Shown one piece after another: positions 94 to 29,581 of a DNA stretch of 64,000 bases. The notes under the pieces are model-generated. The model was not told where the DNA came from. It worked only from the letters and a program-made list of their open reading frames with translations, and did no database searches. A program made the position numbers and the translations under genes. The stretch is from Branchiostoma lanceolatum (Eukaryota; Chordata; Leptocardii; Amphioxiformes; Branchiostomatidae). Position 1 is the first letter of the stretch. Each line of letters begins with the position of its first letter. The stretch lies in assembly GCF_035083965.1 (NCBI RefSeq), contig NC_089732.1, forward strand, positions 9,997,424 to 10,061,423, in the 5' to 3' direction.

Positions 94-3000
94 CGCGTTC
101 AAGCACCGCGTGCTGCAGAAGCCTGCCGATGTGAACTCCTGCACATGCGGTGGGATGACTTGGAATTTGCTCACCAGCCCGCCCACCTCCAACGTCCCCA
201 GGTCGTTATCTCTCAACTCGGGCGTGTACGTGAGTCTGATGCCTGAACTGTCCCGGATGCCTGTGTACGTGTACACAAAGGTCATATATGTAAAAGCCCA
301 TTCTCATCCCACACTATACACTCTTGAGTCTTGTATTAGATAGATCAGCCTTATGGAAAAGTAGTTTATATGTACCAACTAACCATTGATCTGCAACCTT
401 CTGGTGAGAAACAAGTTTGTTTGGAAAGTTTTGGAATCTCTGACCTGAAGCCAAGAGCGGGTTGTCGTAGTGCATCTCCATCATCACATAACCGCTGTCA
501 TCGTCTTCACTGATGGGGTAACCAACATGCTCTGGGAAAACGATAGGCTGGGGAAAAAAAGATAAGGAATTGTTAAACAGGTATTAAAACTACTGGCACG
601 AGTGTACAGGAAAAGGTAACACGGTAGTTGGTTTCACATACTACAAATGCAAAATTTCAGATACATTTGTATTTACGATCGCATTTATGTAATACAATGT
701 GCTTGTAAACACCCTGTCTGCGGAAGACATGTAGGCTGGTTGAAGGGTTGGCGGAAAGACCTGTCCGGTCCGGACAGCGAAAAAGCTGTCCGATCCGATT
801 AGACAGGTTGCGTCCCCTGGCAGAAAGCGATAGAATTGCAAGCAGTATGACGTGTATCAGTGTTGCCGTATATCCCAATATAAAGCGCATTGATTGGATA
901 AATGGGGGTCTGCATGCAAATCTCATTGTTTACGCCGCATTTAGAAAGATTAGCGACAGTCTTTTCAACCTCCTTGGCGACACATCGCCCAGCGGAGAGG
1001 GGCCATACAAGCCCCGGACAGCGGGAGTTTGTGCTACACAGACTAGGGAGACATGTGGTCATCATCACAATACTTGATATTTAATAGCGGCGACTTTTAT
1101 CTATCACAACGAACTAAAATTCAAGCATGTTCCTACCCCTGACCCGATGGCCCAGGCCAACATGATGCTTCCTTGATAACATTCCATCCAGTCGCCGGGC
1201 ATGTTGGGAGTGTAGCACTGATGTCCCGGGTGTCCCTCCGGCATGATGGTGATGTTCGGGTTCTTCTTACAGGTGTAGACCAATAAATGGTGAACCGTAC
1301 CCTCGTTCCCAGGCTGAACGATTGGTTCAGCCTAAAGCCAGAAAGAGAGAGAGACTAAATGCATGACGTTAAAACATATATTAACACTAATCTCCAAGCA
1401 GATCCACGCCGGGCGCGAAAATGCTAGTATGCTAGCCAGAGAAGGTCCAGTCAGCCAGAGAGGGTCCAATAGCCCGAGATTATATCAACACAACTATGCC
1501 CCCCCCCCCAGAAGTTACTTAAGCAACTGGATAAAGGTTTGAAAAAGTCAGACGTTTCAGACAGCATCCGCTGTCTTTCGTTAGTGACTAAAGGATCGAA
1601 CTGGACAACCAGGATTAATACCAAAACTCGAAATGATAATGACGTGAAGACAATTAAGGATGGTTCAATAGAAGACTATGTAACGACAAACATAACTGTT
1701 GCTTAATGGGATTGTTCTTGACAGCATTTTCTTTGGAATGGGCCGGATGAAGCAAATCGTTCTATAGAATATCCACTCACACCGCTGTGTCTTTGTTAAC
1801 ATGTTAGTAAAACATCACGCGCACGCGCGCACGCACCTTTATCACGTGGTGTTTACTGGCCAGTTCAGGCATCTTAAACAATTGACACCAGTACGTTGTG
1901 TCTTGATTACCAGGAACTGCGACCTGGGAAGAAATAAGTGAAAGTTTTATTGCAAGTTCTTACCCGTAGGTAATGTTACACGGAAATAACATATACTGAT
2001 AATGATGAACAGCTTATAGTACAATGTACGTGACTACTCTAGTCCAACTTCTGCCACTGTAGTCTTCAATGGCTCTTCAATTAAGATTGTATATCAGATT
2101 TAACAAACAATGAAAGTAATTCTATATATCAAAACGAACCTTAAAAGAACCAAATTGGACAGAAGATTCGAATGTTAATAACTATGTTTAGTTGAAAACA
2201 TTATATCGAAAGATCACTGCTACTGTGGGTTAGATACAGCTAGCTCTCAGTTGAGTAGCAACTTGACTAGTATACGCAAAAATCTGGCTAGCTTTCTGTT
2301 AAGTTTAAATATTCATTGGCATAGGCATAAATTTCAGACACAATAAAGATGCGGTTGTATTTCAAAGATTGGCCGTAAGGCCATGTTGTTTGATTGTATG
2401 GATGGCTTCGTCTGGGAACCCCAAAACTGATGCGAGCGTGACAATATAACAAAAGAAGTTTGGCAAAAAAAGTTCCAGAGTATGGTACAGCGTATAACGA
2501 ATAATAGAATCTTCATTTTCATATCTTCACATCTTCTTCTTTGACTTTGGAATTGATTTTTGCATTCTACGACATTGAGTATCTTTTTCCAATATTTTTT
2601 TTTAAATTTACGGCATAATATTTAAGCATTTGTAGCTGCTTTGTGCGGTTTACAGTAAGGTTGAAAACTTTTTGTTTGCTGGAAACGGATACAAATCGAT
2701 GGCGCGCGCGGATGTCACAAATATAACCAAATCGACATGGTCTAAGATGAGTAGAAATAAACCTTACATTGTTCATCAGCAAATCATGTGTGTAGGTTGT
2801 TCCTATTGAAATGGTCTGCTCCGGGACGATCCTTTGTAGAAGACGTGTCGCTCTGGTTCCCCTGTTGGATCCATGGTAGGACGGGCCGCTTACCCCAGAC
2901 GCCTCGTCCGGGTCCTGGTCGTGCCACGCCCATATCACCCGCATGGTGTCCTCCTGGAGACCACAAACATTCGTCAACATGTGTCAATATATCTTATCTA

Positions 3001-5352
3001 GTCATTTCACAACTATTGACGCATACCACCTGTCCTCAGCAACCATTTTTGCTCAGTCCCTTGAGTGGCTGCTCCCAACAAGTCGCTCCTAGAAGGCAGG
3101 CTCGCGCGAATCTAGCACGGTCGGTGGTAACTGCGTGTCGCTGCCGAAGGAATTAGCCTGGGTGCCATCCTATTTCTACCGGGGGTCCTAAACATTCAAG
3201 ATTCAAGAGTAGCGAATGTAGGAGCCCCGGTAGAAATAGGATGGCACCCAGGCTAGAAGGAATTAGCTGCCCTGGCCCGGTAGAATATAACGCCCCTTTC
3301 TAATTGTGATATGACAAACTAAGATTTGAAAAAGATGGAAAACTGTACAAGAGAAAAAGGGGCTTTTTCCATTATTTTTCATTTTTTGTGTACTTTTCAA
3401 CGTTACCAAGACATATCAAACAAACCCAAACAATAGAAGCTCACGGTAACCGTGCCGACAGAAATCCTCATTTAAAATGGCTGCTAGCTGCTGTCAATCA
3501 ATTTTGGTTGTTGAGCAGAGGGTGAATATCCCTTTGAGACTGCAAAAAAAGTGGGTTAGACAGTTGGTTGCTTGGGAGATGGTCTTAACTATGTAAAAAT
3601 GGCCGGGACTGTTTCAATGTGTCCTCTGACGGCAGATGATTGCCTGCGCCAGGTGGTTACTCGGCCAGGTTTGGCTGTAGTTGGTAATTTGCGGAGCTGT
3701 TTCTTCGACTGTGATGTCATACTTACACTGATGACGCGACTGTGATGTCATACTTACACTGATGACGCGATCCTTCTCGTCACATGTCGTCAGTTTCCTG
3801 TTGAACCTCAGCACGGTATGGGTCCCGTTCTCGTACCCAGACACCAGCTCCCAGTCCTGACTCTCGTCCACAGGGGGCTGTGCCTTCGCGTCAGCGTAGT
3901 GGTCCTGGAATACAGCATGTTACAAATCATACAATGAATGGTGTTTTGATATTCCTGTCTTTCTGCTGATTACTAGAAAATCACTAGAATGGTACCCAAA
4001 CTATGATAAATGATGCGCCGATGCACCACCCCCCCCCCCCCAAACCCCCACGAAAAAGAACACAACAGGACAATAAAGCAAACGGCCAGGTCAGGCTTAG
4101 CACGGTTACTAGAATCCAGGGATTTTGTTGTTTTCGAATTGTAAACTACATTTTTATGTTTCAATCTGTGCTCTCTGACAGTTTATTGACCGTTGCCGTG
4201 AGCATTTTCGATACATGGTATGAATAACTCACTGACACAATAGGTTTATGTAACGTACAGTTAACGCAAATAAACCTACAGGATGTTGACCTTTATGTTT
4301 GGTAGGCGAGCTCGAATGCCTGCTTTTACATAGGCCTAACAGTCATATTCGTCCAGGTCATACTCTTCAAATCCCTGTCACCAGTTTTAAATCCAGCTCC
4401 TTTGGTTGATATACTTCATTCATGTGTAGGCACCACAACTTCCTTGTCAGTAGTTGACAAGTAGTTTTCTATACGACTTGGGCCTCCCTTCCACTAAACG
4501 TTGATCGTTGAGCATCCGTACGGTGACCAAAATCGGACTTGTGTGACCCTTGATTTCATCATTCGAATATGATGCAAGATGTATGTTTAAATCTAAGTAT
4601 GACCTAAAAGACGGAAAACGTCAGAATATTCGTTATACATTTTTTTTTATATATCCATGAAGTTCGTTGAATGATCTATGAAACCTTAGATAACTCCGCG
4701 GCCGCAGCATGGTCACAGTCTTTAGCTAGTAGAAAGGAGGTTGCAATTTGACAAAGCACACATAATACATGATACTACATCATTCTTTCGGGGGTTGATA
4801 GTTTAAAAAGTGAACGGCCGCGTTTTTTGTCTTTGCCTAGACGGTGCTGTTGCAATCGACCCTCGAAGAAACTGTCAACAGACCTACGTTACTAGTGCGG
4901 TATGAATCTCTAAGCAGATCTATTGGTGCCAAAACGCCATTTTAAAACTCATTTTGCCAGTTGGATACGGTCTTTGTCACTGATAGATCTGCTTGAAGAT
5001 CTGCGAGGTATCATAGTACTGGCGAAATGCCTAGATATTTGTTAACATGGACAAATAGACAAATGCAACGACGTGTTACCGTGAGGTGCGCTTTCCCGTC
5101 TTTTACCCAGCCGATGGCGATGTCGGATCCCGGCATGCCTCCGTTAGGAGACAGACCCATGCCGAACCATCCTGTCGTCTGCACATGGGCTTCGAACTCG
5201 ATCTTTTCGTCATCAAACTTCCAGAACAGGTGGAACTTTTCTTCCTCGTCTAGAGACTCGTGGTGTGTAAAATCGTCGGCTCGCACAGCCTGCCCCCCAT
5301 AATGAAGGGCTATGATCAAAACTAGAACACAGCTCCCAGCGATTCTAGCCAT
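94..5352 (-). CDS. MOXD1: DBH-like monooxygenase (MOXD1 family), copy A, cut by window edge
   Basis: Minus-strand gene. Exons in transcript order: 5352-5080, 3904-3758, 2953-2768, 1923-1837, 1331-1137, 547-445, 260-94; exons 8-12 lie left of base 1. Phases join cleanly and every intron is GT-AG. Exon 1 encodes a signal peptide ending near AVRA and the start of a DOMON domain. Exon 5 carries the VHHLLVYTC motif (two CuH-site histidines) and exon 6 the MEMHYDNP motif (third CuH histidine). Exon 7 ends with the donor gttagt. The family hydroxylates small amines or peptides with copper and ascorbate in the secretory pathway; the substrate of MOXD1 itself is not established. Exon 1 is one codon shorter than in copies B and C (91 against 92). 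No stop or frameshift seen in exons 1-7. Family call is firm; exact orthology is inference. Confidence 0.88.
3154..3255. mobile_element. Foldback MITE with TAGCCT ends, copy A intron 2
   Basis: Near-perfect inverted repeat: TAGCCTGGGTGCCATCCTAT is answered by its reverse complement ending at 3255. It is flanked by the 8-bp direct repeat GAAGGAAT (3146-3153 and 3256-3263). Copy C has the empty site at about 26820, with a single GAAGGAAT, so this is an insertion. An 8-bp target duplication suggests a hAT-type source. Confidence 0.85.
3758..3789 (-). repeat. Exon 2 splice donor that has been tandemly duplicated (copy A)
   Basis: A 31-bp tandem duplication covers the end of exon 2 and its gtaagt donor. 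The exon end at 3758 is repeated inside the intron with a second intact donor after 3727. The same arrangement is at 15095/15064 in copy B and 27246/27215 in copy C, so it predates the array. Use of the distal donor would add 31 nt and shift the frame into exon 3, so the proximal donor is taken as the functional one. Confidence 0.75.
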
Positions 5353-6092
5353 ACTGTCTGCTGCAACTTGACAACGCGTAATGCGATTTTATGGACAGGT
5401 GTCTCTGGAATATTTGAAGTATGACGAAAGCGTTTCCAAGACAACAGACTATCATTGATTAACCTCCCAGTACGCAAACAGGTTGGGAAATGAGTCATCA
5501 AATAGAGACTTTGTGCTGCTTTTTAGGTGTAAGCTCTGTACTATGTGAACTTTAACAACCAGAAACACATATGTAGGTTGACACTGGACAGTTATGGACG
5601 AAATGCGTTAGCAGGTTATTGTTTTATATAGCTAGCTGTACAATAGAATGGAAAATGAAGCATTTGCACTTTGAACCTCTATGATGGTGACTTTAGCAGA
5701 AATGTCACCACATCCAGTCTTGTAGTGGTCGCACCGCTAAATGAGATTAACTTGTGTGATTTTATTCTGTAAATTTATGATCCCATCTTCTGTAGCAAGC
5801 TAAATACTCAATGACATACAAACCCTGTCTGTCAACATTCTTCATTTATTGAGAATATAATTGTTTCTATATTGAGGATCCCCACACATCAGAATTTTCC
5901 ATGTTTATACATATTCTATATGTATACTCTTTCCATAGATACAGTAATACTTGGGAGACTCAGAGATATAGATTCACTGTTGCTAAAAGCGATGGAATGT
6001 GGGCTAATCATACATTTCTCCAACTCAACAATAAATTCAACAGTAAATGAAGTGTCCAATAGATACAGGGTGCAGAATGTAACTCAAAAGTA

Positions 6093-6595
6093 GGACCCTA
6101 TCTTGTGGGTGGAGGGGGGATGGGGTTGGGGGGTGCCGGAGGGGGAGGGCCCCCTGGTGGTGCCCCTGGTGGTGGGGCTCCTGGAGGGGGTCCAGTTGGG
6201 GGCAGGCCTGTGGGAGATGGCCCTACAGGAGGGGGGGGGGGCACCAGGTGGCAGACTAGGCGGCCTTCCTTGGGCAGGCCGGCCTTCCTTGGGCAGACTA
6301 GGCGGCCTTCCTAGGGCAGGCCGGGCATGTTGGGGGGTCCTCCCGGCGGCCCCATGGGTTGGCTTGTGGGTGGCGGTCCAGGCTGGGACGTGGGGGAACC
6401 CCCTGGTTGCCCGGGAGGCATTCCCATGAAGCCTCGGGGTGGGCCATGGTGGAACCCCGGGGGCATGTTCGGTGGTTCCCTGTGTGGTCCCCCCTCCCCC
6501 GGTGGTCCCCTATGGTGGAACATGCCAGGGTGGCCAGGGTGCATCCCAAACGGAGGGGGTGGTGGGCCACTGGGTCCCCCTGGTGGGGCCATGTG
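6093..6595 (-). pseudogene. SF3A2: SF3A2 last-exon fragment (pseudogene)
   Basis: On the minus strand this reads MAPPGGPSGPPPPPFGMHPG and on through a Pro/Gly/Met-rich tail, matching the true SF3A2 last exon at about 30612-31087. The 5' part of the exon is missing; homology stops at the MAPPGG codons next to 6595. After NMPGLP there is an in-frame TAG, followed by a locally reiterated block (ggcggccttcc, three times at 6260-6320) that replaces the Leu/Pro/Gly segment of the intact gene. It has no splice acceptor or zinc finger and cannot make SF3A2. It sits upstream of monooxygenase copy A, just as the real SF3A2 sits upstream of copy C, so it was carried along by the tandem duplication. Confidence 0.85.
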
Positions 6596-7255
6596 ATCAA
6601 CCCTTTGTAGAATTATCTACACAACTGAAGGTAACTGTTGTATATGAATGCTGAATGTAAGAATACGTTTTCACAAAGTTGAAATCATCTCCTATCAAAG
6701 AGGCTGTGCAAAAAAGCAGAAAAACAGTATATGTATACCTGTTACTGTTATACATCAAGTATGATTTCAACAGCATTTTTGTTCCTTCAATTTTGGTGAA
6801 AACATGGGGAAGGAAATTGTACAAAAGTCAACCAAATACGTTATTCCTTCGTGCAGACTTGATTATCTAAAAAAAACAAAGAAACTGTTAGTTAATCCCC
6901 CAGCAATCATGAACGTGTAGATATCAAGTGATCGCTTTGCTGGCACATAAGCTACATTATTATACGACTTCCCACTCTCAGACATACGATTTGCATTAAA
7001 TCATGATAAACATTGATATCTATGCCTTTAGAATCGATATTGTTGGAATATTTACCTCAAAAGAGACTTTGGAAGTTTTCTAAATCAAAGATCTAATGCC
7101 TCCATAAAACATAACAGTAGTTTTTGTGAATTGTTTAAAAAATGTATAAGTAAATCATACCGTTTCACACATTACGTACTCATTTATAAAAGATTAGTAA
7201 TGGCCAATCACCAACACCTGTCTTACATGTAAATGTCCTTTTTGAAAATCAAGGC

Positions 7256-7257
<2 letters not shown>

Positions 7258-7328
<71 letters not shown>

Positions 7329-7353
7329 ACACACACACACACAACACACACAC
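7258..7353. repeat. (AC)n microsatellite downstream of copy B
   Basis: About 95 bp of nearly pure AC dinucleotide, just past the stop codon of copy B. The counterpart lies at 18167-18247 next to copy C. Short plus-strand ORFs across it are artefacts. Confidence 0.95.
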
Positions 7354-7395
7354 GCACACTTGCTTTCCATTCGACGGCCACAGCCAAATGGTGTT

Positions 7396-10300
7396 TTAGT
7401 TCATTCCTGTGATTACAAGCGCCAGAAGGTAAGCGGTCAAAGTATAAACTGCAGCGTGCTGTGGCTGTAGGGCCGTAGAACCACCAACAGGGTCGGGGGT
7501 CGGTGTTGCACTCCGGCTGCAGATGTCTTCTGTAGGCCGCTTGGTCCCACGTGGAAAGCGGTCGGCATAACCTACCAGCGGACCCTAGTCATTTGCCGAT
7601 TCCAGAAGAGAAGAGAAAGCCGTTAGAACATTCTCATATCACAAGGAAGTAGGAGTCAAGTCAAGTCAAGTCAAAGTTTATAGCACGAGTTTGGGTTCGA
7701 AGTGCATACAGGCAAATGCAAACATGTAACGCTGAACATAAAACGAAGAGCTGCCCTTACAAAGGCAACAGTTCCATTCAATGTGCAATTATCATCTACA
7801 GTTTTAAGTGTCAATACGACATTGTCAATGAACATTATCTAATAACCCATATCATTTCAATATACTTAGTCTTATCTAGGAAAGGGAAGCTGCAGAAGCA
7901 GTGGGATAGGTTCAGTACTTTGTTGTATCTTTAACGTTTGTTCTTGACCATATAAAAGACACCACAAGGCACACATCCTATTTTGTTTATCGCGACTGAA
8001 CTAGCTGTCCTGGTTTTCTGGAGTGTATCACTTACCATGTACATTTGTGATTATCTGTACTTGTATGACATTTTCTTGAATACAGTATTTTTAAAAAACG
8101 GTGTTGGTCTTACAGTATCGACATTAGACTGATGGGTGGCCTGGCAGATCGAGTAGAAGGTTGAATTCAGGAGGTATTCGGAGAAGATCTGTCCATTCTC
8201 GCTCGTCCACGGCACGGCCTCCATAGCCTCCTCGTAGGTCATGTTGACCATGTGCGCAGGCGCCGTAATGATGATGCCCGGCTCGCCATTATCGGTCCTG
8301 TAAACACCAAGTGGAGAAAAACAAATCAGGTGTCTGACGAATACAAGAAACATGCATAATGGCTAGCCTCCATAACAGGTGCTCTGGGCCTTTCTTTCGC
8401 TTATGATATACTTTTTGAATTGACTTTTTGCACTGGGTCATCTGTGAAGCCAGCCCGTAACCATTGACCCAGAGAGCCTGCTATGGAGGCTACGTAATGG
8501 CTTCAATTTGTTGAAAAAATTGAACGTTTTGTACCGTCGGTTTTATAGCTGTGGAATGGGATCCCAAAATCGACAGGTGTTATAAAGAAACTTCCGATAG
8601 CTGATTAAACCTCTATCATAGCTAAACTGCAATGATTAGATGTTCTGTTCCCGTTGTCGGTTAACAGGTGCCATCAAATGACGCTTCTTGTAAGGCCACA
8701 GCATGTGACTCTTTTGGATGACATCAGCGAGCTCAATCTTTAGTTTGAATGTTTTTTTATTTTCAAAGGGTACACGGTCAATAAGTAGTCACACTTGCGC
8801 TGGCGTTTTGCATAGAAAGAATGGCACTGTCGTATAAAACATTCACACCCTATGGCATGTTGAGACTACAACAAAGCTAATTAATAATACACACAATGTA
8901 AAATCCTGAACTCCAGCGAAGCCGACAGTGTGGTACACGTTTGGCAAACTGTCACACCTACTCAGGTTGAACTTCGGGTAGTACATGAAAAACGTCTCAC
9001 ACATCTCTTCTGGGGTACCGAGACCGCCCTGAACAAAAGAAATAAACCAATCATTAAAGTTGTCCCCAAACTAGCCTCCGTTGCAGTCCTTCCCACAGCG
9101 ATCTTTAAAAACTTTTTGGTGGGGGGGGGGGGGGGCGCCGCGTATCTGCTTGAGCCCCCGTATCTGCTTGGGATCCCGAAACTGCCACAGCGGTCACAGG
9201 GTCACAGCGGTTTCGGGATCCCAAGCAGATACGGGGGCTCAAGCAGATACGCGGCCAAGCGAGAGACCTTCAGAAGATCGGTAGTTACAGTGCCTTGGGT
9301 TTTCACCGCCAGACACACGTACGGCTCCGAATCTGACTTCCTTTAAGAGACTCTTGAACAAAACGAACGGACACGGACAATGAACCAGCTTTCGCCCTAC
9401 TAACGTTTATGTTACATGTTGTAGAAATCTACATATTGTTGTACCATAAATATGTAATGATATATGTTCATAGAGTTATTAGGACTCAAATGACTGTGTA
9501 TCTCTGTTATATTGTATCTGACCCATACCTCTTACCTCATGACCTCAATGAAATCGGCCTGCGTGCCGATTTGATCTTATCATGAATAAACAAAGGCTCA
9601 AACAAACAAACGTGTCCAGGCAGTGTAAAACCCTACCACTACGTGTGAATGAATAACACAATTCTTTGTACACAACAAAGTGTTTAATTCACAGTGACGT
9701 TGACCGTCTCTCGCATTCATCAGGGCAATCCTGACTGGTCCAATTTGCACTGCAGCTATAGGTGTCGCTGCTTACAGATGCGGTCCCAAACGTAAAGTAT
9801 CCACATATATACTGTACATACATAGGGTAACAATAATAAACGTACAGTGAAACAATTATCATCTACTTTTTCTTAACCATTTGTGAAACGTCAGACACCC
9901 TTGCATGGAAATATATATCAGCAGTGTATCTTGTTTATCTTCTTTAATTTTCTTTTTTAAGACATCATTCTGAACTTTTGTCAAGGCAAGGAAACAACAG
10001 AGAAGATGTGAAAACTGAAGGTTCTACTTACATACGTAACGAAGTCTTTGTGAGACGAATCGTAGATGCATTCTGTAATCAGAATGTCTCCCTGAAGAAA
10101 AGACACCGGAGTGGAGTTTATGTTACATTGGCGACCATCACTTGTTGCTAACTACATCCGATTGAGGAAAAGGACACTTCTTAAGATTGCATGGAAAGCT
10201 TGACTTTGCTAAAAAATACCTCACTAATTATGCAAATCAAGTCCTTATTTGCGTGACTAGCATACCATTAAGTTGGTTAAAGTTACTTATATGATCCTAT

Positions 10301-13300
10301 ATGTCAAACATTTTTTTTAACTAAATGAGTTGAGGAACAGCAGCAAGGTGTGTAAGATTACAAGATTTATGTGTTATGACGTTACAGGACTTGTCTCACT
10401 CATGTGTTTGATAACGTTATTTGGTAATGACTATATGATAATAACGTTAATTAATGACCCGCTTTCCTTCGGTCTATTTGGTGTCATAAAGTATGTTCGA
10501 TTCCTGTAACCACTTCATAAACAACCTCGTACGCTTCGCGGACTAGGTTACTCATTCGGTGGTTATCGGGGACTAGTACTGACCATGCCTTATGGCACCG
10601 TATACACCTAAGGACAGGTCATAAACCCTATATTATAACGGTACAATCAATTGCTTACCGTACATAATTCACGAAAATCTAGCTATCACTGCCAATGTGT
10701 AAATGTCAAGGAAATGTTACCAACTCAGAGTGACTCACGGGGTAGATGGTGAGCTCCTCCTTCAGCTTCCTCTCGTACTGCAGGTTGAAGTCGTAGTTGT
10801 CGTCCCGGACGATGTCGATCTCCACGCCGTCACGGATCAGCCGGGCGTTCAGCTTCACTCCCAGCAGGTGGGAATGCAGGTTTGCACTGATGATGTGGAT
10901 GGGCTGTCCGTGCTCCTCGAGGAACTAGAGAAAAATAACAAAAACGCCCCTGCAGTTTTAGAATGTAATGCTAGGTGGCCCAAACTTATGTGACCTCTTC
11001 CTGAACACAAGAGCTACCTAACATCCAAAAAGCATGTCCAGAACGCGAGATATCAAAACAGGAAGTTCCGCTGCAGTACCTAGGAAACCACTAGAGGGCC
11101 CAAAATCTAACTATTTCCAGTTTTTGTCACACCCTAAAACCACACCAAATATGAAATCATTCCATCCAACCATTTTCTAGTTATCTTGTTCACCAACAGA
11201 CAGACAAACGCTACTGAAAGTATAGCCACCATATGCATGACATTTCATGGAGGTAATGATCTTGTTTCAGGCATCTCAAACTTTCTCTAAAAATAAAAGA
11301 TTTTAAGAATAGAACTGCAAATCGTACTAGCTGGAGTTGGCACACGGACTGGATTTTCATTTAACGACTAAATCTCATGGGACAAGCTCATGCGAAAGTG
11401 TCTCTCAGGTATGTACCAAGGTATGTACTAACCGCGTTCAAGCACCGCGTGCTGCAGAATCCTGCCGATGTGAACTCCTGGACATGTGGTGGGATGACTT
11501 GGAATTTGCTCACCAGCCCGCCCACCTCCAACGTTCCCAGGTCGTTATCTCTCAACTCGGGCGTGTACGTGAGTCTGATGCCTGAACTGTCCCGGATACC
11601 TGTGTACGTGTACACAAAGGCCATATATGTAAAAGCCCATTCTCATCCCACACTATACACTCTTGTATTAAATAAATCAGCCTTATGGAACTGTAGTTTC
11701 TATGTACCAGCTCAACATTGATCTGCAACCTTCTGGTGAGAAACAAGCATGTTTGGAAAGCTTTGGAATCTCTGACCTGAAGCCAAGAGCGGGTTGTCGT
11801 AGTGCATCTCCATCAGCACATAACCACTGTCATCCTCATCACTGATGGGGTAACCGACATGCTCTGGGAAAACGATAGGCTGGGGGAAAAAAAGATAAGG
11901 ATTTGTTAAACAGGTATTAAAACTACTGGCACGAGTGTACATGAAAAGGTAACACGGTAGTTGGTTTCACATACTACAAATGCAAAATTCCAGATACATT
12001 TGTATTTACGATCGCATTTATGTAATACAATGTGCTTGTAAACACCCTGTCTGCGGAAGACATGTAGCCTGGTTGAAGGGTTGGCGGAAAAAGCTGTCCG
12101 GTCCGGACAGCGAAAAAGCTGTCCGATCCGATTAGACAGGTTGCGTCCCCTGGCAGAAAGCGATAGAATTGCAAGCAGTATGACGTGTATCAGTGTTGCC
12201 GTATATCCCAATATAAAGCGCATTGATTGGATAAATGGGGGTCTGCATGCAAATCTCATTGTTTACGCCGCATTTAGAAAGATTAGCGACAGTCTTTTCA
12301 ACCTCCTTGGCGACACATCGCCCAGCGGAGAGGGGCCATACAAGCCCCGGACAACGGGAGTTTGCGCTACACAGACTAGGGAGACATGTGGTCATCATCA
12401 CAATACTTGATATTTAATAGCGACGACTTTTATCTATCACAACGAACTAAAATTCAAACTTGTTCCTACCCCTGACCCGATGGCCCAGGCCAACATGATG
12501 CTTCCTTGATAACATTCCATCCAGTCGCCGGGCATGTTGGGAGTGTAGCACTGATGTCCCGGATGTCCCTCCGGCATGATGGTGATGTTCGGGTTCTTCT
12601 TACAGGTGTAGACCAATAAATGGTGAACCGTACCCTCGTTCCCAGGCTGAACGATTGGTTCAGCCTAAAGCCAGAAAGAGAGAGAGACTAAATGCATGAC
12701 GTTAAAACATATATCAACACTAATCTCCAAGCAGATCCACGCCGGGCGCGAAAATCGTAGTATGCTAGCCAGAGAAGGTCCAGTCAGCCAGAGAGGGTCC
12801 AATAGCCCGAGATTATATCAACACAACTATGCCCCCCCCCCCCCAGAAGTTACTCAAGCAACTGGATAAAGGTTTGAAAAAGTCAGACGTTTCAGACAGC
12901 ATCCGCTGTCTTTCGTTAGTGACTAAAGGATCGAACTGGACAACCAGGATTAATACCAAAACTCGAAATGATAATGACGTGAAGACAATTAAGGATGGTT
13001 CAATAGAAGACTAAGTAACGACAAACATAACTGTTGCTTAATGGGATTGTTCTTGACAGCATTTTCTTTGGAATGGGCCGGATGAAGCAAATCGTTCTAT
13101 AGAATATCCACTCACACCGCTGTGTCTTTGTTAACATGTTAGTAAAACATCACGCGCACGCGCGCACGCACCTTTATCACGTGGTGTTTACTGGCCAGTT
13201 CAGGCATCTTAAACAATTGACACCAGTACGTCGTGTCTTGATTACCAGGAACTGCGACCTGGGAAGAAATAAGTGAAAGTTTTATTGCAAGTTCTTACCC

Positions 13301-18163: not shown

Positions 18164-18234
<71 letters not shown>

Positions 18235-18281
18235 CACACACACACTTGCTTTCCATTCGACGGCCACAGCCAAATGGTGTT
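16665..18281. other. Spacer between copies B and C
   Basis: Upstream region of copy B (16665 to about 17515), then sequence from about 17515 on that is shared with 6596-7395 downstream of copy B, including the (AC)n run at 18167-18247. Unlike the A-B spacer it has no SF3A2 exon fragment; 17110-17515 is unique here and shows no coding potential. No gene seen. Confidence 0.6.
18167..18247. repeat. (AC)n microsatellite downstream of copy C
   Basis: About 80 bp of AC repeat, orthologous to 7258-7353. Confidence 0.95.
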
Positions 18282-21200
18282 TTAGTTCATCCCTGTGATT
18301 ACAAGCGCCAGAAGGTAAGCGGTCAAAGTATAAACTGCAGCGTGCTGTGGCTGTAGGGCCGTAGAACCACCAACAGGGTCGGGGGTCGGTGTTGCGCTCC
18401 GGCTGCAGATGTCTTCTGTAGGCCGCTTGGTCCCACGTGGAAAGCGGTCGGCGTAACCTACCAGCGGACCCTAGTCATTTGCCGATTCCAGAGGAGAAGA
18501 GAAAGCCGTTAGAAAATTCTCATATCACAAGGAAGTAGGAGTCAAGTCAAGTCAAGTCAAAGTTTATAGCACGAGTTTGGGTTCGAAGTGCATACAGGCA
18601 AATGCATACATGTAACGCTGAACATAAAACGAAGAGCTGCCCTTACAAAGGCAACAGTTCCATTCAATGTGCAATTATCATCTACAGTTTTAAGTGTCAA
18701 TACGACATTGTCAATGAACATTGTTTAATAACCCATATCATTTCAATATACTTAGTCTTATCTAGGAAAGGGAAGCTGCAGAAGCAGTGGGATAGGTTCA
18801 GTACTTTGTTGTATCTTTAACGTTTGTTCTTGACCATATAAAAGACACCACAAGGCACACATCCTATTTTGTTTATCGCGACTGAACTAGCTGTCCTGGT
18901 TTTTCTGTAGTGTATCACTTACCATGTACATTTGTGATTATCTGTACTTGTATGACATTTTCTTGAATACAGTATTTTTAAAAAACGGTGTTGGTCTTAC
19001 AGTATCGACATTAGACTGATGGGTGGCCTGGCAGATCGAGTAGAAGGTTGAGTTCAGGAGGTACTCGGAGAAGATCTGTCCATTCTCGCTCGTCCACGGC
19101 ACGGCCTCCATAGCCTCCTCGTAGGTCATGTTGACCATGTGCGCAGGCGCCGTGATGATGATGCCCGGCTCGCCATTATCGGTCCTGTAAACACCAAGTG
19201 GAGAAAAACAAATCAGCAGGTGTCTGACGAATACAAGAAACATGCGTAATGGCTAGCCTCCATAACAGGTTCTCTGGGCCTTTCTTTCGCTTATGATATA
19301 CTTTTTGAATTGACTTTTTGCACTGGGTCATCTGTGAAGCCAGCCCGTAACCATTTGACCCAGGGAGCATGCTATGGAGGCTACGTAATGGCTTCAATTT
19401 GTTGAAAAAATTGAACGTTTTGTACCGTCGGTTTTATAGCTGTGGAATGGGATCCCAAAATCGACAGGTGTTATAAAGAAACTTCCGATAGCTAGTTAAA
19501 CCTCTACCATAGCTAAACTGCAATGATTAAATGTTCTGTTCCCGTGGTCGGTTAACATTAAATGACGCTTCTTGTAAGGCCACAGCATGTAAATCTTTTG
19601 GATGACATCAGCGCGCTCAATCTTCAGTTTGAATCTTTTTATTTTCAAAGGGTACACGGTCAAAAAGTAGTCATACTTGGGCTGGCGTTTTGCATAGAAA
19701 GAAGGCCACTGTCGTATAAAACATTCTCGCCCTATGGCATGTTGAGACTACAACAAAGCTAATTAATAATACGCACAATGTAAAATCCTGAACTCCAGCG
19801 AAGCCGACAGTGTGGTACACGTTTGGCAAACTGTCACACCTACTCAGGTTGAACTTCGGGTAGTACATGAAAAACGTCTCACACATCTCTTCTGGGGTAC
19901 CGAGACCGCCCTGAACAAAAGAAATAAACCAATCATTAAAGTTGTCCCCAAACTAGCCTCCGTTGCAGTCCTTCCCACAGCGATCTTTAAAAACTTTTTG
20001 GTGGGGGGGGGGGGGGGGGGCGCCGCGTATCTGCTTGAGCCCCCGTATCTGCTTGGGATCCCGAAACTGCTGTGACCCTGTGCCACAGCGGTCACAGGGT
20101 CACAGCGGTGTCGCTGCTTACAGATGCGGTCCCAAACGTTAAGTGTCCACATATATACATATATAGGGTAACGATAATAAACGTACAGTGAAACAATTAT
20201 CATCTACTTTTTCTTAACCATGTGTGAAACGTCAGACACCCTTGCATTGAAATATATATCAGCAGTGTATCTTGTTTATCTTCTTTAATTTTCTTTTTAA
20301 GACATCATTCTGAACTTTTGTCAAGGCAAGGAAACAACAGAGAAGATGTGAAAACTGAAGGTTTTACTTACATACGTAACGGAGTCTTTGTGAGACGAAT
20401 CGTAGATGCATTCTGTAATCAGAATGTCTCCCTGAAGAAAAGGCACGAGTGTGAGATTTTGTTACATTGGCGACCATCACTTGTTACTAACTACATCAGA
20501 TTGAGGAAAAGGATACTTCTTAAGACTGCCTGGAAAGCTTGACTTTGCTAAAATTCCTCACTAATTATGCAAATCAAGTCATAATTTGCGTGATCGTGAC
20601 TAGCATACCATTAAGTTGGTTAAAGTTACCTATATGTCAAACATTTTTGATCAAATGAGTTGAGGAATATATAGTTCAGGAACAGCAGCAAGGTGTGTAC
20701 GATTAGAGGATTTATGTGTTATAACGTTACAGGACTTGTCTCACCCATATGGTTATGACTATATGATATCGATAATAACGTTAATGACACGCTTTCCTTC
20801 GGTCTATACGGTGTCATAAAGCATGTTCGATTCCTATAACCACCTCATCAACATCGTACGCTTTGCGGATTCGGTGATTATCGGGGACTGACCATGCCTT
20901 ATGACACCGTATACACCTAAGGACAGGTCATTAACCCTATATTATAACGGGACAATCAATTGCTTACCGTACATATTTCTTTTTATCTATCCGTAAGAGC
21001 CTGATGTTGCCATCGATTTACGAAGAAAGGCGGCTCAATTGTTACTGTAGCAGCATTTCTTCACCCTAGGTCAGAAATATCAATGCTCGAGACAAGTATT
21101 GACTTCACTGACCCATTAGGAGAAGCAGGGGTTACGAAGGCTGCTCGGGAAATTCCCTACCCCATTTAGGCCGGAATGTTTTTGGTCCACTCACACCGGG

Positions 21201-24200
21201 GCATGCCCCTGCTCTTTTTCGAAAGATGTGGTGGGTTCTTTTATGTGCTCAAGGTGTGACTCTCCTCAAACACGGGACCTCCATTTAACGTCCTATCCGA
21301 GGGACGTCCCTAACCTGAGTGGGGTGAGGAAATTTTAAAGTCGTGTTAAGTGCCTTTCCCAAGGGCACAACGTCGGGGCGCAAGTTCGGACATGTCTCTG
21401 GGCACAACCTGGGATTAGATCCCGGGTCCCATTGTTTGACAGCCGCGCGCTCTACACTTGCGCCACACGACGCCACTTTTAACGAAAGTCTTTTACTACC
21501 AATGTGTAAATGTCAAGAAATGTTACCAACTCAGAGTGACTCACGGGGTAGATGGTGAGCTCCTCCTTCAACTTCCTCTCGTACTGCAGGTTGAAGTCGT
21601 AGTTGTCGTCTCGGACGATGTCGATCTCAACACCGTCACGGATCAGCCGGGCGTTCAGCTTCACTCCCAGCAGGTGGGAATGGAGGTTTGCACTGATGAT
21701 GTGGATGGGATGTCCGTGCTCCTCGAGGAACTAGAGAAAAATAACAAAAACGCCCCTGCAGTTTTAGAATGTAATGCTAGGTGGCCCAAACTTATGTGAC
21801 TTTTTCCTGAGCACAAGAGCTTTTCAACACCCAAAAATCGTGACCATAGCATTAGCATGTCCAGGACACGGTATCAAAACCGGAAGTTTCACTGCAGAAC
21901 CTAGGAAAGCCACTCACTCACTCACTCACTCACTCACTCACTCACTCACTCACTCACTCACTCACTCACTCACTCAATCAATCAATCAATCACTCACTCA
22001 CTCACTCACTCACTCACTCACTCACTCTCTCCCATAGCTTAGTCAGCCGTCGGGGCAGCATAGCTCTCAGTGAAAGCTCTCCATTGCTGGCGGTCTTCCG
22101 CCAGTCTGGTCATCTGGTTGGCTGAATGATCTGTGATCCACGACCGACGGGGACGCCCCCGCGGCCGCGCACCCTCCGCTTTTCCCTGAAGGATTGTGTG
22201 TGCAAGAGTGCCTTTCGCCCTAGACACATGCCCGAACCACAGCAGTTTTTTTTCTTTTTAACTACGGACAAGAAACTGTCAAGTGGGCCTTGCAGAGTAT
22301 GGATGCGTTTCTTGACTTCTTTGTTTGTGGTGTGTGATGTCCAGTGAATTCGTAGCAGTCTGATAACAGTTCAATTCAAACGCATTGATTCTCTTCACCG
22401 TATTTTTGCATTTAGTGTCCACGAGTCAGCGCCATACAGGAATATTGATAACACAAGGCAACGTAGTATACGGATCTTTGTTGACATGGAGATATTATGA
22501 CTGGACCATATGTGCTTGAGTTTTGACAGTGCAAGGGTTGACTTAGCAATCCTGACTTTCACCTCTTTGGCTGAACCACAGTCTTCTGTCTGGACAGAGC
22601 CAAGGTAAGTGAAAGCCACTAGAGGGCCCAAAATCTAATTATTTCCAGTTTTTGTCACACCCTAGATTCACACCAAATATTAAATCATTCCATCTAACCA
22701 TTTTCGAGTTATCTTGTTCACCAACAGACACACAGACAGACAAACCCCACTGAAAATATATCCATATGAATGACATGGAGGTAAAGATCTTGTTTCAGGC
22801 AACCCAAACTTTCTCTAAAACTAAGTATAAAACTGCAAATGGTACTACGTACATGGGGCTGGCACCTTTAACCGAATAAATCCTTTTGGACAAGCTTATG
22901 AATGCCAAATTGTCTCTCAGGTATGTACTAACCGCGTTCAAGCACCGCGTGCTGCAGAATCCTGCCGATGTGAACTCCTGGACATGTGGTGGGATGACGT
23001 GGTACTTGTTCACCAGCACGCCAACCTCCAACGTCCCCAGGTCGTTATCTCTCAACTCGGGCGTGTACGTGAGTCTGATGCCTGAACTGTCCCGGATACC
23101 TGTGTAACGTTGGGTAACCTAAATTCGTGGGGTACTTAAAGTCGGGATTTTTCGAAAACGGGGTATTTAGGGATATGTGCTACATGCAAAATCAGTTATA
23201 ACGCCAGCAATGCAAAGCAGATAGACTAACGTATTCAGAACACTGGCTGAAAAGCTTCGATAACCATGCATTAGAAGTTGGCGACGTCAAAAACTCTCCG
23301 TCCCTTATTGACAGAGTCTGGGGGCTTCGTGGGAGAATCACCCAGCACGGTTGTTCGCTGGTTTATAAGACAAATGTCACATCTCCTGCCTGCTAAACAC
23401 AATTATTTATAAGACAACTTATTACAATCTCTTTTGCTAACCTGCAACTATATTCTAAGTGTGATCAATCATCAAAACTCCTCTCTGTTGCTACAACCTA
23501 CGGCACGTGTATTTTCCCGCCGCCATATTGTTAACCAGAATCCTGTTGTCAAGCAGACGACAAAGGTTTGTGAGGAACACTTTTTTGTCTAAATGCTGCG
23601 TGTGATAGTGGACTGAGGAAGATATTTTCCTCAAAGTTTGCTCCTAACACAGCAAGGAACACATGGACATAGTAGTATTACCATTGCTACGGCATCCAGC
23701 TAACTTCCCATGAATAATGTAACGTTACACGTTGCCCGATGATGACGATGGGCCGACTTTGAGTGAAGTTCTACCGACTCAACACACGGGTTGTTCCCGA
23801 ACTGGCCTGATGTGTGCGGTACGGCCGTTTCTTCGTGTATTTTTTTTACTTGGACACGTCTATATCCATAGCACTCTCCTCAAGCCAAGGATAGAACGAA
23901 TAGCTGCTGTATAAAATGTGATTAGCGGTAAGATATTCAAGACGAATCTTCTCTCCCGAATTAATGTGCCCCCCTGTCCGACAGCACCACAATTGTGCGT
24001 GCGGCGCACGGTAGTTTCAAGTTGAAATATTATGGTGTCAGCACGACTAGAGACAAAATCTACCATATATATGATTAGTGCAAAGATAGTACATGATACT
24101 GACAGAATAATAGAAAAAAAGGATGGTTTATTGTTCTGCTAGATTGATTTCAGTCAACCATTATCGGAAAAATCCCGAATTTAGGTTACCCAACGTTACG

Positions 24201-27200
24201 CAAATGCCATATGTAAAAGAAATATATCAGAATGACTACAACAGTCCTTTGAACGAAAAAAATTGAACTACAGAAAGTGCGAAATGGACGAAATGGCGTT
24301 CCACTTTCGTTCCATTTGACACTTTCTGTACATTGCTTCACGGCATGGCTCAAGATTTTGCCGGGCAAAAAACTGCGATCGGAAAACATTCTGAACCAGC
24401 TAACCATTGATTTGCAACCTTCTAGTGAGAAACAAGCGTGTTTGGAACGTTTTGGAATCCCTGACCTGAAGCCAAGAGCGGGTTGTCGTAGTGCATCTCC
24501 ATCATCACATAACCACTGTCATCGTCTTCACTGATGGGGTAACCCACATGCTCTGGGTAAACGATAGGCTGGGGGCAAGAATAGATGTGATAAAGGGTCA
24601 TAAAGAATATTTGTTAAAGGGGGTAAAACTACAAGCATGAGTGTACAGGAAAAGGTATTAAACACGAAAGTTGGTTTCACATGCTGCAAATGTGGAGTTC
24701 AATATATTTACGTAATACAATGTGCTTCTTAATGCCCTGTGTAGGAAGACATTTAGCCTGGTTGAAGGGTTGGCGGAAAAAGCTGTCCGGTCCGGACAGC
24801 GAAAAAGCTGTCCGGTCTGATTAGACAGGTTGCGTCCCCTGGCAGAAGGCGATAGAATTGCAAGCAGTCTGACGTGTATCGGCGTTGCTGTATATTTCAA
24901 TATAAATCGCACTGATTGGATAGATAAATGGGGGTCTGCATGCAAATCTCATTGATTCCGTCGCGTTCAGAAAGATTAGCGACAGTCTTTTCAACCTCCT
25001 TGGCGACACAGCGCCATGCGGGGAGGGGCCATACAAGCCCCGGACAGCGGGACGTTGTGCTACACAGACTAGGAAGACATGTGGTCATCATCACAATACT
25101 TGTTGTTTCACAGCGGCGACTTTTGTCTATCATATCGAACTAAAATTCAAACTTGTTCCTACCCCTGACCCGATGGCCCAGGCCAACATGATGCTTCCTT
25201 GATAACATTCCATCCAGTCGCCGGGCATGTTGGGAGTGTAGCACTGATGTCCCGGATGTCCCTCCGGCCTGACGGTCATGTTCGGGTTCTTCTTACAGGT
25301 GTAGACCAATAAATGGTGAACCGTACCCTCGTTCCCAGGCTGGACGATGGGTTCAGCCTAAAGTCACAGAAAGAGAGAGAGACTAAATGCATGACATTAG
25401 AAATATATCAACACAACTAAGCCCCCCAAAAGTTACTGAAGCAACTGGATAAAGAAGGTTTGAAACAGTCAGACGTTTCAGACATCATCCGCTGTCTTTC
25501 GTCAGTGATTAAAGGAGTGAACTGGACAACCAGGTTTTAAACCAAAACTCTGAATTGAAATGTTAATGAGGTGAAGACAATTAGGGATGGTTCAACAGAA
25601 GACTAAGTCAAGCCAAACTTAATTGTTACTTATTGTTGTTGACAGCGTTTTCTTTGCAATGGGCCGGATGAAAGAAATCATTCTATATACACCCAAGAAG
25701 GTTAAACTTTTGATACACCACAGAATATCCACTCACACTACTGTGCCTTTGTCAACATGTTAGTAAAACATCACGCGCATGCGCGCACGTACCTTTATCA
25801 CGTGGTGTTTACCGCCCAGTTCAGGCATCTTAAACAATTGACACCAGTACGTCGTGTCTTGATTACCAGGAACGGAGACCTGGGAAGAAATAAGAGAAAG
25901 TTTCATTGCAAGTTCTTGCCCGTAGGCTAGATTGGCAGTACATGTTATATGGAAAGGGCGGACTGACAGTGATTAACAGTATGTGACTACTCTAGTCCAA
26001 CAACTGACACTAAATTATAACTTATTCAGTTCGACTTCTTTTTCAGAGACATACTAGTAAGGCATGACAGACACAGGTAGAACAAAATGATGTCATCCGA
26101 GCTAACGGTTACATTAAGTCAACTTTTCTTAAGCTTTTGCCAAACTTTTTCTTATTCGCACGCTCGCATCATATCAGTTTTTGGGTCACCGGAGAATGTC
26201 ATCCATATAATCAAATCAACATGGCCTAAGATGAATAGAAAATAAACCTTACATTGTTCATCAGCAAATCATGTGTGTAGGTTGTTCCTGTTGAAATGGT
26301 CTGCTCCGGGACGATTCTTTGTAGAAGAAGCGTCGCCCTGGTTCCCCTGTTGGATCCGTGGTAGGACGGGCCGCTTACTCCAGACGCCTCGTCCGGGTCC
26401 TGGTCGTGCCACGCCCATATCACACGCATGGTGTCGTCCTGGAGACCACAAACATTCGTCAACATGTGTCAATATATGTTATCTAGTCATTTATAATACT
26501 ACTATTGACTCATAGGCAGTGTACGAAAGACCAAAACAACATGGAAAGAGGCTTCTTCAGGTCATTTCCAACACTTCCAAAACATGTCGTCCGGATCCTG
26601 GTCGTGGCACGCCCATATCACACGCGCACGCATGGTGTCGCCCTGGAGACCACAAACATTCGTCAACATGTGTCAATCTACTACTATTGACGCACACTAC
26701 CTGTCCTAAGCAACGTTTCTTTCTCAGTCCCTTGAGTGGCTGCTCCCAACAAGTCGCTTTTAGAATGCGGGCTTGTGCAAATCTAGCACGGTCGGTGGGT
26801 AACTGTGTGTCGCCAGTCCGAAGGAATTGGCTGCCCTGGCCAGGTAGTAGAATAACGCCCGTTTTAACTGGGATATAACTAACTAAGATTTAAAAAAAGA
26901 TGGAAAATTAGACAAGAGAAACGGGGCTTTTTTTTTATTTTTGAAGATATTTTTCAACTTTACGACGTAACAAACCCAAACAAAAGAAGCTCACGGTAAA
27001 TGTGTCGACAGAAATCTTCATTTAGAATGGCTGCTAGCTGCTGTCCATCGTTTTGGTTGTTGAGCAGAGAGTGAATACCCCTGATGGTTGGGATAGGGTC
27101 TATGTAAAATGGGGACTGTTTGGTGGTTGCCTGCGCCAGGTGATTGCGGCGGCCAGGATTGACTGTAGTTGATTATTTGTGGAGCTGTTTCTTCGACTGT

Positions 27201-29581
27201 GATGTCATACTTACAATGATGACGGGACTGTGATGTCATACTTACACTGATGACGCGGTCCTTCTCGTCACATGTCGTCAGTTTCCGGTTGAACCTCAGC
27301 ACGGTATGAGTCCCGTTCTCGTACCCAGACACCAGCTCCCAGTCCTGACTCTCGTCCACAAGGGGCTGTGCCTTCGCGTCAGCATAGCGGTCCTGAAATA
27401 CAGCATATTACAACCCATAATACAGAAGTACCTACTTTTTTCTGCTGATTAAAATAAGGCAATGTTGATTGACTATATGGATGACATCCTCTGGGAACCC
27501 TAAAACTGATGTGAGCGTGCGAAGAAAAAAAAGTTTTGCAAAAAGAAAGTTTCCTTCATTATGAAATCTACGAGGTCAGGAAGGACGAAAAAAACTAAAC
27601 ACACATAATGTACGTGGTATACCGAAATATAGATTCTTCATTTTTGTTCCTACGAACTTTTTCTTTGACTTTGGAATTGACTTTAGCATTCTACGACATT
27701 AATATCCGTTTTCTGAAATATATATATGTTTTTAGATTTTATTTACATCATGTATTTTCTCATTTTGCAACTGCTTTTCATGATTTTCAGTATGGCCGAA
27801 AACTAATCTTTATCTGGAAAGGGACGAAAATCAGTGCTGCGCGCGTGGATGTCGTCCGTATAATGAAATCAACATGGCCTTACGGAGGATTCTAAAAGGA
27901 ACATCACTAGAACATATGAATGGCATTTGAATTATGATAAATGATGCACCGATGAACCCCAAACACCCCCACCCCGCCCACCACGAACACACACAACGGG
28001 ACAATAAAGTAAACGGCCGGGTCAGGCTATGCCTGGTACGGTAGAACACATGAATGGCATTTTAATTATGATAAATGGTGCACTGATGAACCCCCCACCC
28101 CGCCCCACGAACACACACAACGGGACAATAAAGCAAACGGCCAGGTCAGGCTATGCCTGGTACGGTTAGCCTGAGTGTCATCCTGTTTTAGTTCCAGGCT
28201 CTACCTTCTTTGGTGAAGGTATAGCCTGGAACTGAAACAGGATGACACTCAGGCTAGGTACGGTTACTAGGCTCTCCAACGATTTTGTTGTTGTTGACTT
28301 GTAAACTGCAGTGTTGTTTTAAGCTGTGCTTTCTGACAGTTTATTGGCCGTTGGCATGAGCAATTCACTCATGAGCATGAGTGTACATGGGCTGAATGAC
28401 TAATGTTGACACAATAGGTTTTATGTAACCAAGGAGGTTTTATATAGCTATATAAAACCTCCTTGATGTAACGTTTATGGCAGAGCAAATAAACCTATAG
28501 GGTGTTGACCTTCAAAGTTTATGTTTGATAGGGGTGGTCGAATACCTGCTTTTACATAACGGCCTAACAGTCAAATTGGTCCAGGCAAGTCCTTGGTCCA
28601 GGTCATACTCTTCAAATCCCTGTCACCAGTTTTAAAGCCAGCTCCTTTGGTTGATATATTTCATTCATGTCTAGGTACCACAGCTTCCCGGTGTCAGTAG
28701 TTGACAAATAGTTTTTTATACGTCTGGGGTCTCCTTTCCACCGTTCACGTTAATCGTTGAGCAACCGTACAGCGACCAAAATCGGACTTCTGTGACCCTT
28801 GATTTTGTTATTCGAATATGATGCAAGATGTAAGTTTGAAAGAGGATAAAACGTCAGAAAATTCGTTCTTTATCCACGAAATTCGTTGAGTGATCCATAA
28901 AACCTTAGATAACTCAGCGGTCGCTTTATGGTCACAGTCTCAAGTGGAATGGAGGTGTTGACAAACCACACATAATACATGATACTACAAATACTTTTGG
29001 AGGTTAAAAAGCTAACGCTAAACTGCAGCGTTTTGTGTCTTCGCCTATAGTGCTGTTGCAACCGATCGTCGAAGAAATTGTCAAAAGACCTACATTACTA
29101 GCGCGGTATTAATCTCCAAGCAGATCTATCGGTGGCAAAACGCCATTTTAAAACTCCTTTTGCCAGTTGGATACGTTCTAAGTGCCACCGATCCGCTTGA
29201 GGTTAGCGCGGTATCATAGGACTGACGAAATGCCTAGATATTTGTTAAACAGGAACAGATAGCTATATAGAGATAAATGCAACACCAAGTCCAATGATGT
29301 GTTACCGTGAGGTGCGCTTTCCCGTCTTTGACCCAGCCGATGGCGATGTCGGATCCCGGCATGCCTCCGTTAGGAGACAGACCCATGCCGAACCATCCTG
29401 TCGTCTGCACATGGGCTTCGAACTCGATCTTTTCGTCATCAAACTTCCAGAACAGGTGGAACTTTTCTTCCTCGTCTAGAGACTCGTGGTGTGTAAAATC
29501 ATCGGCTCTAACAGGCTGTACCCCATATTGAAGGGCTGTGATCAAAACTAGAACACTGAAACTCCCAGCGATTCTGGCCAT
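18282..29581 (-). CDS. MOXD1: DBH-like monooxygenase (MOXD1 family), copy C, complete
   Basis: Twelve coding exons: 29581-29306, 27392-27246, 26438-26253, 25879-25793, 25357-25163, 24568-24466, 23099-22933, 21730-21545, 20431-20372, 19910-19777, 19184-19001, 18470-18282. Total 637 codons plus stop, every exon the same length as in copy B. I chose the ATG at 29581 and not the upstream in-frame ATG at 29668: it matches the starts of A and B and directly precedes the signal peptide. All six copper-ligand residues are kept (246, 247, 323, 404, 406, 478). It differs from A and B at scattered residues, for example MTVRPEGHPG in exon 5 where A and B read ITIMPEGHPG, and AQPLVDESQ in exon 2 where they read AQPPVDESQ. 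Exon 10 donor is gtgcgt. Introns carry several insertions absent from B, listed separately. This is the most diverged of the three copies. Confidence 0.9.
19254..19383. mobile_element. Foldback MITE with TAGCCT ends, copy C intron 10
   Basis: Ortholog of the element at 8364-8492. Here both flanks read CGTAATGGC, a perfect 9-bp target-site duplication. The terminal arms are TAGCCTCCATAACAGG and the reverse complement near 19383. Confidence 0.8.
20976..21496 (-). mobile_element. tRNA-derived SINE insertion, copy C intron 8
   Basis: About 520 bp absent from copy B. On the minus strand the segment from about 21480 has a tRNA-like head with an A-box-like part (ggcgcaagtgtagagcgcg) and a B-box-like part (GGGATCTAATCCC). 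It is followed by a body with GGGAAAGGCACTTAACACGA. The body motif recurs in a second copy at 55956-56100. Target-site duplication not resolved. The tRNA-like part lacks a full cloverleaf, so it is a SINE and not a tRNA gene. Confidence 0.65.
21911..22029. repeat. (CTCA)n tetranucleotide microsatellite
   Basis: About 118 bp of CTCA units with a short AATC-variant patch near 21975. It lies at the 3' end of the LINE fragment and is best read as that element's tail. Confidence 0.95.
21915..22610 (-). mobile_element. 5'-truncated LINE fragment with target-site duplication, copy C intron 7
   Basis: Inserted between two copies of GAAAGCCACT (21905-21914 and 22611-22620); copy B has a single, uninterrupted site. 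On the minus strand it encodes the C-terminal part of a non-LTR reverse transcriptase: a YLGS segment, TKIRILRCLVLSIFLYGADSW (split over 22395-22620), then after a frameshift or stop the GRPRRSW and DRQQWRAF tail (22039-22227). The 3' end runs into a tetranucleotide (CTCA)n tail at 21915-22029, as in LINEs that end in microsatellites. Dead on arrival: 5'-truncated and frame-broken. Confidence 0.88.
23107..24196. mobile_element. Non-autonomous TIR DNA transposon (1.09 kb), copy C intron 6
   Basis: Ends are perfect inverted repeats starting ACGTTGGGTAACCTAAATTC. The flanks are the dinucleotide TA (23105-23106 and 24197-24198), and copies A and B have the uninterrupted tgtgTACG site. TA target and TIR suggest a Tc1/mariner-type mover. 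The left TIR carries an extra 17 bp (tggggtacttaaagtcg) before a second shared block, GGATTTTTC. No transposase ORF seen. Confidence 0.85.
27906..28167. repeat. Tandem duplication of about 130 bp, copy C intron 1
   Basis: Two adjacent units, each starting near gaatggcatttnaattatga and ending in ctatgcctggtacggt. They are separated by a C-rich segment of slightly different length. Copies A and B have one unit (for example 3990-4120). Confidence 0.75.
28167..28256. mobile_element. Foldback MITE with TAGCCT ends, copy C intron 1
   Basis: Arms TAGCCTGAGTGTCATCCTGT and its reverse complement at the 3' end. Perfect 8-bp target-site duplication GGTACGGT (28159-28166 and 28257-28264). Copies A and B lack it. 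It shares terminal TAGCCT and target size with the elements at 3154 and 8364 but has a different interior. Confidence 0.85.
28431..28464. mobile_element. Perfect 34-bp palindromic insertion, copy C intron 1
   Basis: Two 17-bp halves (AAGGAGGTTTTATATAG and its exact reverse complement) meet with no spacer. The flanks repeat ATGTAAC (28423-28429 and 28466-28472). Copies A and B have one ATGTAAC and no palindrome. It may be a footprint or the shortest form of a foldback element. Confidence 0.7.

Follow-up and report, generated by a model that had tools for sequence, protein, structure and literature searches.

The middle member, B, of an array of three copper monooxygenase genes is a mosaic, with a 5' part of the type found in its neighbour A and a 3' part of the type found in its other neighbour, C. 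All three genes are of the MOXD1/DBH type and follow one another head to tail along the minus strand of the window (the whole 64-kb stretch of DNA analysed). On balance, we favour an origin in which unequal crossing over near exon 9 expanded an array of two genes to three and left B as a hybrid; the region upstream of B would have been replaced from a more distant copy. The gene models are:

94 to 5352, minus strand: copy A, predicted gene model comprising exons 1-7 (exons 8-12 would fall outside the window).
5080 to 5352, 3758 to 3904, 2768 to 2953 and 1837 to 1923, minus strand: exons 1-4 of A.
1137 to 1331, 445 to 547 and 94 to 260, minus strand: exons 5-7 of A.
7396 to 16664, minus strand: copy B, intact and mosaic, 12 exons and 637 codons (gene model, Pfam, PDB match, intron comparison).
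18282 to 29581, minus strand: copy C, intact, 12 exons and 637 codons (gene model, Pfam, intron comparison).

Open frames, splice sites and concordance among the three copies guided the placement of exon borders, with human DBH and MOXD1 as a further aid. Exons 1-7 measure 276 (A: 273), 147, 186, 87, 195, 103 and 167 bases in all three copies, and exons 8-12 measure 186, 60, 134, 184 and 189 bases in the two copies visible there (B and C). The codon missing from A exon 1 relative to B and C is the sole exon indel, and is the one exception to the matching exon lengths described in the initial annotation. All modelled introns are GT-AG (6 in A, 11 each in B and C), and 637 codons read without a stop in both B and C, whose proteins differ at 29 of 637 amino acids. 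The gene models, Pfam domains and PDB match of B bear out the proposed three-copy tandem array, with B and C as intact 12-exon genes and A intact over its seven exons in the window. The limits previously given for the array, 94-29581, are correct: 94 is the final base of exon 7 in A, and 29581 is the first base of the start codon of C.

Intron divergence, counted after removal of gap columns and poorly aligned stretches, reveals the composite nature of B. Across introns 1-6, A and B differ at 128 of 4010 sites (3.2%), compared with 381 of 2756 (13.8%) for B and C and 401 of 2774 for A and C. Across introns 9-11, B and C differ at 37 of 1509 sites (2.45%). The B-C divergence of the 5' introns is distinct from that of the 3' introns (Fisher P 2e-39), and no difference is seen between A-B in introns 1-6 and B-C in introns 9-11 (P 0.16). 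B-C introns 7-8 are intermediate, with 86 of 914 sites differing, and are distinct from both levels (P 0.0005 and 1e-13). Shared-site patterns in introns 1-6 are dominated by A=B (541, against 41 for A=C and 42 for B=C unfiltered; 353, 31 and 38, respectively, in 2740 filtered columns). Self-comparison finds A and B 94-96% alike over the 5' half and B and C 96% alike over 7149-9185 / 18057-20070, while the 5' half of B and C aligns in long pieces that are 83-88% alike and short pieces of 92-94%, several of them over exons. The corresponding segments and candidate borders are:

11328 to 16650, minus strand: 5' part of B, closely resembling A 1-5400, introns included.
6592 to 10107, minus strand: 3' part of B with its 3' flank, closely resembling the corresponding part and flank of C (17514-20448).
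10,103 (support 10010 to 10107), no strand: best single switch point in B from a B-C change-point fit (2dlnL 165), adjoining exon 9 (10032-10091).
9137 to 9255, no strand: imperfect palindrome within intron 9 of B; the best switch point lies about 0.9 kb away.

A fit with two change points (8,599 and 11,208) improves on the single point, with a gain in 2dlnL of 22, indicating that the B-C border is graded. Within the young B-C part, the bin 8500-8894 carries 19 differences in 386 sites. The stretch running from the 5' part of A across the spacer to the 3' part of B is collinear with that running from the 5' part of B to the 3' part of C over about 9 kb, save for ~1.2 kb in the middle of the unit. 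B is thus found to resemble one paralogue in its 5' part and the other in its 3' part within a collinear repeat unit, with a graded border; for A, the comparison covers exons 1-7. The near-identity of A and B in introns, reported in the initial annotation, is confirmed. C is far from B in the 5' part and near it in the 3' part, where the description of C as clearly older is wrong, so an age for a copy read from one part of the gene is misleading. Recent duplication and gene conversion, offered there as alternatives, both find a place as parts of one mosaic history; the mosaic itself had been missed.

A crossover at the intron-9 palindrome (9.14-9.26 kb) was considered and dropped, as the change point falls at 10.1 kb. 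In C, one arm and the loop of this palindrome are present, and the next 0.5 kb of B intron 9 is absent. The repeat unit also includes (AC)n microsatellites of differing lengths just 3' of B (7259-7359) and C (18167-18245). C intron 7 is 1202 bases long versus 508 in B, and contains at 22042-22634 (minus strand) what is presumably a remnant resembling a reverse-transcriptase element, with a DUF6451 match (E 4.1e-07) at 22398-22634 and no Pfam match in 22042-22257. In all three genes the exon 2 donor lies within a 31-base tandem repeat (3706-3770 in A, 15043-15107 in B, 27195-27255 in C), which creates a second donor-like GTAAGT 31 bases downstream, the use of which would shift the frame.

The region upstream of B departs from the pattern of the rest of the unit. 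The features concerned are:

16651 to 17514, minus strand: upstream region of B, containing no SF3A2 fragment; 17123-17513 (about 0.4 kb) matches nothing in the window.
30614 to 32106, minus strand: 3' end of SF3A2, which neighbours C on its upstream side; the open stretch 31756-32106 matches Pfam SF3A2 with E 3.5e-20.
6096 to 6594, minus strand: upstream of A, a piece of the last exon of SF3A2 that shares 89.8% identity with 30612-31089 across 500 columns.

The proline-rich last exon of SF3A2 extends from about 31.2 kb to the stop at 30614-30616, and the fragment above A has an internal stop at 6313. The presence of this fragment indicates that the first duplication probably took along the end of SF3A2; neither self-comparison nor 5' flank alignment found a matching fragment upstream of B. 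With gaps counted, the 5' flanks of A and C are 84.1% identical over 226 columns, those of B and C 74.1% over 185 and those of A and B 68.6% over 421. As the A-C distance here approximates that of the introns, B is the odd one. Site patterns in the flank are 33 for A=C, 6 for A=B, 3 for B=C and 3 with three letters, a reversal of the A=B to A=C ratio of the introns (P 3e-28) that begins upstream of about codon 7; patchy A/B/C patterns also occur inside exon 1. Outside the divergent segment (16.65-17.5 kb), the repeat unit that contains it is for the most part 94-99% alike, and the A-B windows at the two edges of the segment stand at 91% and 90%. The segment was either replaced after, or retained through, the event that formed the rest of B.

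In the origin we favour, the first step would have been the duplication of a gene adjoining SF3A2, with the 3' end of SF3A2 included, which founded lineages X and C, whose introns now differ by about 14%. The mosaic suggests that X and C then recombined by unequal crossing over near exon 9, which would have produced A (equivalent to X), C and, between them, the hybrid B, with 5' exons derived from X and 3' exons derived from C. Finally, the 0.9 kb upstream of B would have been replaced, most likely via recombination with a more distant copy beyond the window. The equal divergence of A-B in the 5' part and B-C in the 3' part agrees with one event. Counting against this origin are the graded border, including the intermediate level of introns 7-8 and the bin 8500-8894; the upstream region of B, which requires an extra event and is bordered by A-B windows of only 91% and 90%; and synonymous differences that are out of step with the introns (see below), suggesting further exon conversion or a rate effect. 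Growth of tandem arrays by unequal crossing over with formation of hybrid genes is textbook, and expansion of this array by a hybrid gene would be a neat but ordinary route for such clusters.

A bolder reading, which we put forward tentatively and with more doubt than confidence, is that B has three sources: a promoter from an older fourth paralogue beyond the window, 5' exons from A and 3' exons from C. Were this the case, the array would be reassorting the promoters of a hydroxylase family along with its pocket exons and its C-terminal anchors, and the copies might differ in expression as well as substrate.

We consider it unlikely that the array is instead an old one of at least three genes in which B was overwritten by long gene-conversion tracts, one of about 5 kb from A in the 5' part and one of about 3.5 kb from C in the 3' part, while B kept an old upstream region of its own. 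Such a history explains the divergent 5' flank of B without an extra step and accounts for the graded border at introns 7-8, as well as for the exon excess of changes unique to A or B (25 vs 37 unique to C in exons, 83 vs 541 in introns, P 7e-7). However, it requires two long tracts that arose separately yet do not differ in age (3.2% and 2.45%) and that jointly form one collinear repeat unit. An assembly artefact, in which two haplotypes of a two-gene locus were placed end to end and joined inside similar genes, such that the assembly shows the 11-kb unit one time too many and B is no real gene, is likewise improbable. The repeated unit does show an intron difference of about 2.5-3.2%, a level of heterozygosity that is plausible in highly diverse animals. 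According to PMC9516828, older assemblies widely contain false duplications that stem from divergent haplotypes. Against this, the 5' flank of B is homologous to that of A yet lacks the SF3A2 fragment and is diverged far beyond the 3% found elsewhere in the unit, and there are no Ns in the window.

Selection on the copies was assessed by dS and dN and by setting amino-acid and synonymous changes against the numbers expected from the intron rate. For exons 1-7, dS and dN are 0.089 and 0.0066 between A and B, and 0.102 and 0.030 between B and C; B-C exons 8-9 give 0.097 and 0.011, and B-C exons 10-12 have 6 synonymous and 0 amino-acid changes (9.5 expected, P 8e-5). In exons 1-7, A has 0 unique amino-acid changes where 12.6 are expected (P 3e-6), and the A/B-C split has 23 C-unique changes, a class that includes changes on the A/B ancestor branch, where 116.9 are expected (P 3e-26). 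No frame-breaking indel separates A and B in 1161 exon bases, whereas the intron rate, 19 indels in 4071 bases, predicts 4.6 (P 0.01). The family is therefore constrained, clearly so in exons 1-7 of A, across the A/B-C split and in exons 10-12 of B and C. On the recent B branch, the intron-rate test detects no significant deficit in exons 1-7 (6 vs 10.3 expected, P 0.11), and the initial view of several enzymes kept under constraint is supported apart from this branch. A comparison of the unique amino-acid and silent changes of exons 1-7 in A (0 and 13) and B (6 and 7) gives P 0.015, which suggests that constraint differs between these two young copies.

Synonymous unique changes number 13 in A (3.5 expected), 7 in B (2.8 expected) and 14 in C (32.3 expected). 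This mismatch with the introns fits short exon conversions of A/B with C, while the counting method, mutation bias or a rate effect may also contribute. CpG context does not separate A/B-unique exon changes (9 of 26) from C-unique ones (11 of 37). A rough test on partly rounded counts gives amino-acid to silent changes of 21:17 on the C side vs 6:21 on the A-B side (P 0.011); it is given little weight, because changes that occurred in the A/B ancestor are counted on the C side and the silent sites appear disturbed.

B and C, the two copies scanned, each contain DOMON, Cu2_monooxygen and Cu2_monoox_C domains above the Pfam curated cut-off: the N-terminal DOMON PF03351 with E 1.1e-33 (B) and 6.9e-34 (C), PF01082 with 3.7e-41 and 3.9e-42, and PF03712 with 2.4e-36 and 2.7e-37, respectively. 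The DOMON domain places them in the DBH/MOXD branch of the copper monooxygenases, and membership of this family suggests that the DNA comes from an animal. With B as query, the best PDB match is dopamine beta-hydroxylase (DBH, 4zel, E 3.1e-84), followed by PHM (1opm, E 5.1e-14); the 14 PDB sequences matched comprise 1 DBH and 13 PHM/PAM. The motifs TVHHLL, MEMHYDN, LHSHLL and EEMC are present in both B and C, and B residues H246, H247, H323, H404, H406 and M478 align to the ligand positions of DBH and PHM. We take these six residues (HH, H, HxH, M) to be the copper ligands of copper type II ascorbate-dependent monooxygenases, in line with the earlier observation that all six are kept in B and C. 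In A, the window takes in the first two motifs, and with these the first three of the six ligands, the remainder falling outside it.

DBH and PHM hydroxylate a C-H bond using copper and ascorbate. By homology, the three genes would encode a secreted or membrane-anchored, copper- and ascorbate-dependent hydroxylase of a C-H bond of the DBH/MOXD1 type. Hydropathy exceeds 1.2 at residues 1-26 and 617-637, and weakly so at 285-302. C is unlike both A and B at residues 359, 362, 364 and 365, four of the seven positions of 359-365 around V361. V361 aligns, with a posterior of about 0.7, to a PHM residue that is presumably Met208 of the substrate pocket. These C-specific residues provide a lead towards a possible substrate-pocket difference, and a young hybrid together with natural differences in one strand near the pocket would offer ready-made variants for comparing substrate and expression. 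The lineage-specific amine or peptide hydroxylation capacity suggested in the initial annotation remains a guess.

Elsewhere in the window, an open frame at 37921-38655 (plus strand) has RWD and Prp3_C domains, which we take to be RWDD2-like. A stretch at 40727-42133 (plus strand) consists of Ser/Thr/Pro-rich repeats followed by a hydrophobic segment, mucin-like by look, with no Pfam family over the cut-off. Neither Rfam matches at the gathering threshold nor tRNAs were found in the window.

Among the matches listed in a literature search, no MOXD1-type tandem array appears in titles or the starts of abstracts; the portion of PMC10591384 available names MOXD1 homologue 2 only as the neighbour of another tandem pair. 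Information on mammalian MOXD1 is called very limited, its function only proposed, in an excerpt of PMC11918410. Among molluscs, the vesicular haemocytes of oysters are marked by a DBH-like monooxygenase (PMC12064177), and one in snails rises under schistosome infection (PMC5685644).

In domain composition the array resembles MOXD2, DBH and MOXD1, which share the three Pfam domains of B and C according to the accessible text of PMC4125168. The same text reports a signal peptide and an anchor for MOXD2, to which the hydrophobic N- and C-termini here may correspond. It differs from MOXD1 and MOXD2 in forming a tandem array with a mosaic member. Similarity to DBH (4zel) covers residues 25-552 of B with the ligand positions preserved, whereas the Cys-Thr-Cys stretch of DBH, the cysteines of which link the DBH dimer, aligns to Ile-Thr-Ala of B. 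As for genomic organisation, haemoglobin Lepore and CYP2D6/7 are hybrid genes formed by unequal crossover in tandem clusters. The present array is like these, and like KIR and chicken BG as far as partial accounts of the latter two convey, in that the middle gene is a hybrid and the repeat unit runs from within one gene into the next; it is unlike them in that B has a third, dissimilar upstream region as well.
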